From: Neisseriaceae bacterium PsAf
GTDB taxonomy: Bacteria; Pseudomonadota; Gammaproteobacteria; Burkholderiales; Neisseriaceae
Length of the DNA: 64,000 nucleotides
Direction of reading: 5' to 3'
Assembly (NCBI GenBank): GCA_017114885.1
Contig: WNLJ01000010.1
Location: 1 to 64,000, forward strand
Shown here: positions 23,090 to 25,248 of the stretch, piece by piece
How the letters are laid out: every line of letters starts with the position of its first letter
Numbering within the stretch: position 1 is the stretch's first letter
Program-made: the position numbers and the translations under genes
The notes under the pieces: model-generated
Told to the model about the DNA's origin: nothing
Databases searched by the model: none
Seen by the model: the letters and a program-made list of their open reading frames with translations, nothing else

Positions 23090-23860
23090 ATGTCTCAAAC
23101 ATTATTACTTTCTGATTTACACTTATCAAAACACACACCTGATTTTAATCATATTTTACAAGATAACCTTTCAAAATGGGCAATAGAATATGATGCTCTT
23201 TATTTATTAGGCGATATTTTTGATATATGGCTGGGAGATGATATTGTGGAAGAGTATGCAGCTAATATTATCGACGCACTACAAAACTTTTCTAAACAAA
23301 AACCTCTATATTTTATGCATGGGAATAGAGATTTCCTGATAGGACAACATTTTTTAAAATTAGCTGGCGCGACCTTACTAGAAGACCCTCATTTAACAAA
23401 AATTTATGATCAATTTTACATCTTATCGCATGGTGATTTACTCTGTACTGATGACATCGAATATCAAAAGTTTCGCACTAAAACACGCTCAACTAAATGG
23501 CAAAACAATATACTAAAAAAACCCAAATGGTATCGAAAAATTTTAGCAAAGAGTATTCGAAACTTTTCCTCCATTAAAGGGAAAACACGACAGCAAATAA
23601 AGATTAGCGATGCCACCGAAATCGGAATTCAAGAATTAAAAAATCGTTTTGCTAAATTTCCTGAAGCAGATATTATCCATGGACATACCCATAGACCCCA
23701 AATCCATATGGAGACATTCAACTTAAAACAGGCTGCATATCCATTTAGTCTCTACGTTTTACCAGATTGGCGGCCTAACATATGTGGCGGTTTAAGCATT
23801 AATGAAGATAATCAGGTAAAGTATATAAATTTCAAAAAAATAAGTGTTGAAAAAATGTAA
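23090..23860 (+). CDS. lpxH: UDP-2,3-diacylglucosamine diphosphatase LpxH
   Basis: Cleaves UDP-2,3-diacylglucosamine to lipid X and UMP in lipid A synthesis, at the cytoplasmic membrane face. It is a calcineurin-like phosphoesterase with the ordered metal motifs LLSDLHLS (near residue 8), LGDIFDIWLGDD (near 45), HGNRDFLIG (near 80), LSHGDLLCTDD (near 115) and HGHTHRPQIH (near 195). The start ATG at 23090 gives MSQTLLLSDLHLS and 256 residues, normal for LpxH. An in-frame ATG 87 bases upstream would add an unrelated extension and sits before the likely promoter. No lipid A neighbour is present. Confidence 0.93.
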   Translation: MSQTLLLSDLHLSKHTPDFNHILQDNLSKWAIEYDALYLLGDIFDIWLGDDIVEEYAANIIDALQNFSKQKPLYFMHGNRDFLIGQHFLKLAGATLLEDPHLTKIYDQFYILSHGDLLCTDDIEYQKFRTKTRSTKWQNNILKKPKWYRKILAKSIRNFSSIKGKTRQQIKISDATEIGIQELKNRFAKFPEADIIHGHTHRPQIHMETFNLKQAAYPFSLYVLPDWRPNICGGLSINEDNQVKYINFKKISVEKM

Positions 23861-24023: not shown

Positions 24024-24053
24024 TTGCCTAATAGGCACATTCTATTGGATAAT
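24024..24053 (+). promoter_or_regulatory. Promoter of the candidate small RNA
   Basis: TTGCCT (24024-24029) and GATAAT (24048-24053) are separated by 18 bases. A start 7-8 bases downstream would place the first transcribed base at the foot of the first stem-loop (24060/24061). Confidence 0.55.
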
Positions 24054-24059
24054 TACCTC

Positions 24060-24152
24060 ATTGAGAAAGCCAAGGACTTTCTCAATAGTCTCTCCTCTAT
24101 TTCTCCTTTGTAGACTTTGATACACCTTATATTCTTATAAGGTGTTTTTTTT
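24060..24152 (+). ncRNA. Candidate small regulatory RNA with anti-Shine-Dalgarno loop
   Basis: Three stem-loops follow the promoter at 24024-24053 with almost no spare sequence. SL1 (24060-24086) is a 10-pair stem ATTGAGAAAG/CTTTCTCAAT with loop CCAAGGA. SL2 (24087-24116) is a 5-pair stem AGTCT/AGACT closing a 20-base pyrimidine-rich loop that carries CTCCT twice; the two TCTCCT copies are at 24091-24096 and 24102-24107. SL3 (24122-24152) is a terminator, ACACCTTATA/TATAAGGTGT with loop TTCT and a T8 tail. UCUCCU is complementary to Shine-Dalgarno sequences, and the 3' U-tract suits Hfq binding. The architecture recalls the neisserial sibling sRNAs (NmsR, NgncR_162/163); no alignment was made. 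The T-tail overlaps the last base of mrp on the opposite strand. Confidence 0.65.
24122..24152 (+). terminator. Rho-independent terminator of the candidate small RNA
   Basis: A perfect 10-pair stem with a four-base loop is followed by eight T on the plus strand. The minus strand lacks a T-tail, so it does not serve mrp. It could also terminate lpxH, 260 bases upstream. Confidence 0.85.
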
Positions 24153-25227
24153 AGTTTTTTTCAACGCCAATATTAGAAAAATGATGGCTATAGTCATCGT
24201 TCATTTGAGCCACTTTAAGAACGAGTTGCCATGCTATCCTTTGATAAACTTCAGAATAATTTCCCATTTCCCCAATGGCACCTGTATCCATTGCCTCTCT
24301 AATCTCATATGCTAAAGGCACTTGACCCAGCAATTCAACCTTGGTTTTTTGAGAAAGTTTCTCTCCACCCCCAGAACCAAATATTTCTTCTTTGGCATGG
24401 CACTTAGAGCAGATATAGTAAGACATATTTTCAATAATGCCGACCACAGGAATAGAAACCTTATCGAACATCGAAATTGCTTTATAAGCATCAATCAAGG
24501 CAATTTCCTGAGGCGTAGTCACAACCACTGAAGCCGTAACAGGTATCTTTTTTGATAAAGTCAACTGGGTATCCCCTGTACCTGGAGGCAAGTCTACAAT
24601 TAAATAATCCAATTCATCCCATTCAGTAAAAAACAGTAATTGTTGCAGTGCCTTACTAACCATTGGACCTCGCCAAACAACAGCCTGCTCATCATCAATC
24701 AAAAACCCCATAGACATCACCTGAATACCCAACTCATTTTCTACAGGAATAAATCGACCTTCTCTTTGTTCCGGTTTTTGATCTCTAACTCCCATCATTA
24801 GCGTTTGACTAGGTCCATATAAATCAGCATCTAATAATCCAACTTTTGCACCCATTCGATTTAATGCTACCGCTAAATTAGCTGATACGGTACTTTTACC
24901 AACACCACCTTTTCCTGAAGCTACCGCAATAATATTTTTAATATTAGCAACAAGCGGAATATTGGATTGAACTTTTTTAGCTTTGATATGAGACGCCAAC
25001 TCTAGATTAATTTTAGGATAATCATCTGATAAATTATTTTTTATATTTTCTACTAACTGAGCTTGAGTCGTCCTATCTATTGAAAAAGGCAAAGTGATTA
25101 AAAAATTATCTGACTCAGTACTATTCTCAATAGATTCAAGCGAGAACTTAAAATCGCCTAACTTCATTTCACTATTAGGAATCTTAACCTCTTGCATTAA
25201 TTTTTCAATCTTATGATTTTTATCCAT
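24151..25227 (-). CDS. apbC: Iron-sulfur cluster carrier ATPase Mrp/ApbC
   Basis: P-loop ATPase that carries and transfers [4Fe-4S] clusters to target enzymes. The N-terminal MIP18-like domain (about residues 1-90) is followed by the Mrp ATPase with the deviant Walker A motif GKGGVGKST near residue 108, the DADLYGPSQTLMMG motif, LIVDLPPGTGD, and the cluster-binding CSKC. At 358 residues it has normal length. I use the second of two adjacent ATGs (25227), because AGGA is then five bases away. It lies 19 bases or so downstream of lysS on the same strand and probably shares its transcript. Confidence 0.94.
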   Translation of the reverse strand: MDKNHKIEKLMQEVKIPNSEMKLGDFKFSLESIENSTESDNFLITLPFSIDRTTQAQLVENIKNNLSDDYPKINLELASHIKAKKVQSNIPLVANIKNIIAVASGKGGVGKSTVSANLAVALNRMGAKVGLLDADLYGPSQTLMMGVRDQKPEQREGRFIPVENELGIQVMSMGFLIDDEQAVVWRGPMVSKALQQLLFFTEWDELDYLIVDLPPGTGDTQLTLSKKIPVTASVVVTTPQEIALIDAYKAISMFDKVSIPVVGIIENMSYYICSKCHAKEEIFGSGGGEKLSQKTKVELLGQVPLAYEIREAMDTGAIGEMGNYSEVYQRIAWQLVLKVAQMNDDYSHHFSNIGVEKN

Positions 25228-25248
25228 CATTATCCTAAGCTAATCATT

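Follow-up and report, generated by a model that had tools for sequence, protein, structure and literature searches.

Closest described systems

The NmsR family of small RNAs (sRNAs) is known and well studied in two human pathogens. In Neisseria meningitidis its members NmsRA and NmsRB (Rfam RF02877; also RcoF1/RcoF2) form a tandem pair at dsbB / lrp, are transcribed from a sigma-70-type promoter and fold into three hairpins ending in a terminator; mutation of their anti-Shine-Dalgarno (anti-SD) motifs abolishes repression of the tested targets, with gltA requiring anti-SD2 only (PMC5362039). In the published structure of the second stem-loop (SL2), an inner stem, UCUA/UAGA, leaves anti-SD1 single-stranded and places anti-SD2 in the loop. 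The N. gonorrhoeae siblings NgncR_162 and NgncR_163 are Hfq-binding sRNAs whose regulon takes in amino-acid uptake, the TCA and methylcitrate cycles and glycine cleavage; control is chiefly by occlusion of ribosome-binding sites (RBSs), although some targets are regulated positively (PMC9973317, PMC13104608). Both Hfq binding and Hfq-dependent stability have been reported for this sRNA family (PMC9973317). A separate Rfam family, Betaproteobacteria_toxic_sRNA (RF02278), likewise has a terminator preceded by a pair of CUCCU-type motifs, and may have a mode of action similar to that of the sRNA described below.

An NmsR-family sRNA between lpxH and mrp

The window, by which we mean the whole 64,000-nt stretch of PsAf DNA that was analysed, has approximately 34% G+C and lies on contig 31 of the 1.81-Mb genome. 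Between lpxH and the convergent gene mrp it contains a real but ordinary member of the NmsR family, its copy number and location being a little out of the ordinary; what is new is the PsAf member itself, which departs from Neisseria in occurring as one copy and in its lpxH-mrp location. The features of the locus are as follows.

23090-23860, plus strand: lpxH, upstream neighbour outside the sRNA (NCBIfam TIGR01854 / NF003743)
24024-24053, plus strand: sigma-70-type promoter TTGCCT-18-GATAAT (-35 TTGCCT at 24024-24029, 18-nt spacer, -10 GATAAT at 24048-24053), with hexamers and spacer length kept in the sister species
24058-24151, plus strand: whole sRNA, as matched by Rfam RF02877 NmsRb
24060-24086, plus strand: stem-loop 1 (SL1), 10 pairs, covarying across 30 relatives
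24091-24117, plus strand: conserved 27-nt core TCTCCTCTATTTCTCCTTTGTAGACTT, near-invariant in the family and containing the weak SL2
24091-24096, plus strand: anti-SD1 TCTCCT, part of the core
24100-24109, plus strand: anti-SD2 TTTCTCCTTT, part of the core
24122-24152, plus strand: SL3, an intrinsic terminator whose 10-pair stem covaries in relatives and is followed by a T8 tail
24151-25230, minus strand: mrp/apbC, convergent neighbour outside the sRNA (NCBIfam NF008669, open reading frame)

An earlier note, made from the sequence alone, had read this locus as a candidate anti-Shine-Dalgarno sRNA and had named a covariance search with the NmsR/NgncR_162-163 family as a check. Such a search gave a full-length match to RF02877 (NmsRb, equivalent to RcoF1/NgncR_163; model positions 1-91 of 91) at 65.5 bits, above the family's gathering score of 52 bits, and this is the sole Rfam match in the whole window apart from one tRNA. 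The reading was thus right, and the likeness to the neisserial sibling sRNAs that the note had suggested is one of actual membership. The score is nonetheless below those of Neisseria (up to 107), and that of the sister species, 43.6, falls under the gathering score. Two other assignments were considered and rejected. Betaproteobacteria_toxic_sRNA scored 27.3 bits where its gathering score is 50, and its model lacks SL1; a minus-strand ylbH leader scored 30.3 bits, again with 50 as the threshold, and mirrors the same sRNA hairpins.

Resemblance to the meningococcal pair extends to length, the order of the three hairpins, the terminator and the promoter type, and both anti-SD motifs match letter for letter. 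They lie within a CU-rich core in which PsAf and the Neisseria siblings do not differ, so that family and core are also shared with NgncR_162/NgncR_163. PsAf differs in the letters of SL1 and of the terminator stem, in three extra nucleotides before the terminator, in its position at lpxH / mrp rather than dsbB / lrp, and in possessing one sRNA where both N. meningitidis and N. gonorrhoeae have two.

The elements flanking the core were largely as first described. Taken alone, the promoter match is weak (9/12 letters; four such sites were seen where 1.8 are expected), but the earlier assignment of TTGCCT-18-GATAAT is supported by the sister species (G056, of the same genus), in which the -35, 18-nt spacer and -10 are the same as in PsAf whereas the DNA farther upstream has diverged. 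From the promoter position the sRNA is expected to start near A24060. The 10-pair 5' stem-loop is present and is formed by ATTGAGAAAG/CTTTCTCAAT (24060-24086), and the terminator with its T8 tail is likewise borne out, the 10-pair hairpin spanning 24122-24145 and the tail 24145-24152, with two terminators scanned in the region against 0.0 expected from shuffles. The predicted fold of the 93-nt RNA has an energy of -26.4 kcal/mol (z = -5.0), and none of 200 shuffles was as good.

Distribution and conservation

Of 83 Neisseriaceae genomes, 74 carry an RF02877 match, as does none of 14 control genomes. In a sample of 399 genomes from the wider order, 56 gave a match, which exceeded the cut-off in 30; the viral contigs scanned gave no match. 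In a scan of named genomes the exact 27-nt core was present in Neisseria, Snodgrassella, Eikenella, Alysiella, Stenoxybacter, Conchiformibius and Chromobacterium, and also in Aquitalea, Vogesella, Paludibacterium, Pseudogulbenkiania, Gulbenkiania, Crenobacter and Craterilacuibacter. An sRNA controlling metabolism in two human pathogens is therefore common to most Neisseriaceae and extends to numerous related genera, Chromobacterium, Vogesella and Aquitalea among them; its pairing region is frozen across the family, whereas its stems, the number of copies and the genomic site vary.

The earlier note had made its reading depend upon conservation of the two CTCCT motifs and the stems in related genomes, and both are found. 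An alignment of 30 diverse members shows hardly any change in the core, whereas SL1 and the terminator stem vary in letters with pairing kept. In SL1 and the terminator 93.9% of alignment cells are paired, compared with 29-51% when the partner is slid by 1-3 columns, and the former figure is conservative because the terminators of the window and of the sister species are offset in the alignment and partly counted as unpaired. Two-sided changes occupy 133 cells, where shuffles average 37, and affect 15 of the 20 pairs. These data bear upon one alternative, namely that the hairpin and T tail are a mere terminator between convergent lpxH and mrp, with no sRNA at all. The position between the two genes and the mrp stop codon, which falls within the T tail, would suit such an element, but the Rfam match, the invariant core, the covarying SL1, the sRNA's own conserved promoter, and the lack of a T tail on the minus-strand hairpin leave this alternative with almost no credibility.

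Location and copy number are less constant. In the sister species the sRNA occupies the same lpxH-mrp place, with purB beyond; its SL1 is shorter, and the modelled fold differs if the start is placed as in PsAf. Elsewhere the sRNA neighbours lrp (in Neisseria) or pnp, kefC, nadD, hpnC, tyrS or prephenate dehydrogenase (in other genera), and since neighbour genes differ among genera the sRNA location moves. PsAf and its sister species have one copy each, and the tandem siblings that are usual in Neisseria, although not a requirement of the family, are absent. A search of the PsAf genome for the core with up to two mismatches found no second sibling, the one other match having two mismatches. 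Many relatives have two or three copies, and many others, including most of genus g10, have one match. Such a natural single-copy variant would offer a simple system for asking whether sibling copies matter.

Some variants of the core were also observed. Two genomes (L049, L050) of genus g8, most genomes of which have no match, contain diverged NmsR-like loci with extra core bases (TCTCCTCATATTTCTCCT / TCTCCTCATATTTTCTCCT). At L029:1265-1355 (and also L114) one sibling copy has a duplicated core unit, TCTCCTCTATTTCTCCTCTATTTCTCCT, and so possesses three anti-SD motifs.

Fold of the central region

Of the three stem-loops, SL1 and the SL3 terminator are strong and covarying, and SL2 is weak, with a probability of about 0.5. 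The second stem-loop described in the earlier note exists, in that an outer stem AGTCT/AGACT (24087-24091 with 24112-24116) encloses both CTCCT motifs in a single 20-nt loop, but this loop is not purely pyrimidine as had been stated (A and G are present), and the published inner stem competes with it. The two stems overlap in letters and are mutually exclusive, with near-equal modelled pair probabilities (~0.46 outer, ~0.52 inner). Under either of them, both UCUCCU motifs are predicted to be largely unpaired.

The same note had suggested a self-inhibiting switch, in which AAGGA in the first loop would pair with UCCUU of the second element and mask it. The letters are indeed there, AAGGA lying in and beside the SL1 loop (24072-24076), and an isolated 5-bp duplex has a modelled energy of -3.6 kcal/mol. 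Conservation and energy nevertheless speak against this proposal, which was rejected and which we regard as very improbable. Among 79 distinct stretches (34 nt before the core) AAGGA occurs in the window itself and in none of the 78 other relatives, with the sister species reading AAAGT at this position. The modelled ensemble contains no nested AAGGA-UCCUU pairing, and forcing it costs ~9 kcal/mol. A kissing or pseudoknot contact is conceivable but, modelled as the isolated duplex only, finds no support.

Proposed mechanism and targets in PsAf

The best explanation for the locus, held with high confidence, is a single NmsR-family sRNA that would repress TCA and methylcitrate mRNAs by Hfq-assisted RBS pairing. 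One RNA of ~93 nt, belonging to the NmsR/NgncR_162-163/RcoF family, would be transcribed from ~24060 as far as its own terminator. Assisted by Hfq, its CU-rich region would pair in trans, through a UCUCCU placed between the first two stem-loops and through UUUCUCCUUU within SL2, so as to cover the RBSs of TCA-cycle, methylcitrate-cycle and related mRNAs; translation initiation would then be blocked, and expression lowered. It is from the meningococcal and gonococcal work that we infer expression, Hfq binding, repression and a metabolic role for the PsAf sRNA.

The PsAf genome has hfq, as well as gltA with sdhCDAB and sucABCD adjoining, fumC, prpB, prpC, prpD and gcvT-gcvH (sdhD, sdhA, sdhB, sucA, sucB and sucD being named from gene order). 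Several of their RBSs are complementary to the core, including the prpB site AACAAGGAGAAA and AAGGAG sites at gltA, sdhB, sucD and prpD. No good fitting site was found in PsAf at sdhC and sucC, which are validated meningococcal targets, and none was evident for gcvT at the starts examined, unlike the control of glycine-cleavage genes by NgncR_162/163. In a comparison covering 103 genes from parts of the genome, pairing with the core is better for the TCA/methylcitrate genes than for 90 others (p = 0.0005 by Mann-Whitney test), a difference reached by 6 of 300 shuffled cores. The Shine-Dalgarno sites of the same genes are, however, stronger too (p = 0.00006); this confounds the enrichment, so that target pairing is consistent with the model but no proof of specificity.

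Of the targets named in the earlier note, the peroxiredoxin is a possible one (AAAAGGAGG, rank 15 of 103), whereas neither AAGGAG nor AGGAGG occurs upstream of the first plus-strand gene (432), and this candidate was discarded. By contiguous helix, the best core pairing among the 103 genes is that of a DJ-1/PfpI gene (L171:5534-6082, minus strand; RBS UUAAAGGAGGAAAUAA), a candidate new target; a malate/lactate dehydrogenase and Lon are also among the best-pairing starts, although single ranks mean little because anti-SD pairing is promiscuous.

These rankings raise the question of a rewired regulon, in which an sRNA that is NmsR by descent would mainly control DJ-1/PfpI proteins, malate/lactate dehydrogenase, peroxiredoxin and the like, rather than sdhC/sucC. 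The best-pairing starts point this way, as do the missing sites at sdhC and sucC and a prpC broken by TAA, but fitting sites are still found at prpB, gltA, sdhB, sucD and prpD, and on balance we consider such rewiring unlikely. Less likely still is the fuller scenario of a small AT-rich lineage in which a relocated, single-copy NmsR had its regulon rewired by loss of sdhC/sucC and gain of stress genes; if true, the same invariant core would be serving a different regulatory task.

A separate observation concerns prpC (2-methylcitrate synthase; L173:7340-8434, minus strand; PsAf contig 9, 51360-52403), which one in-frame TAA interrupts in PsAf. The gene is open in the sister species, and PsAf prpB and prpD are intact.
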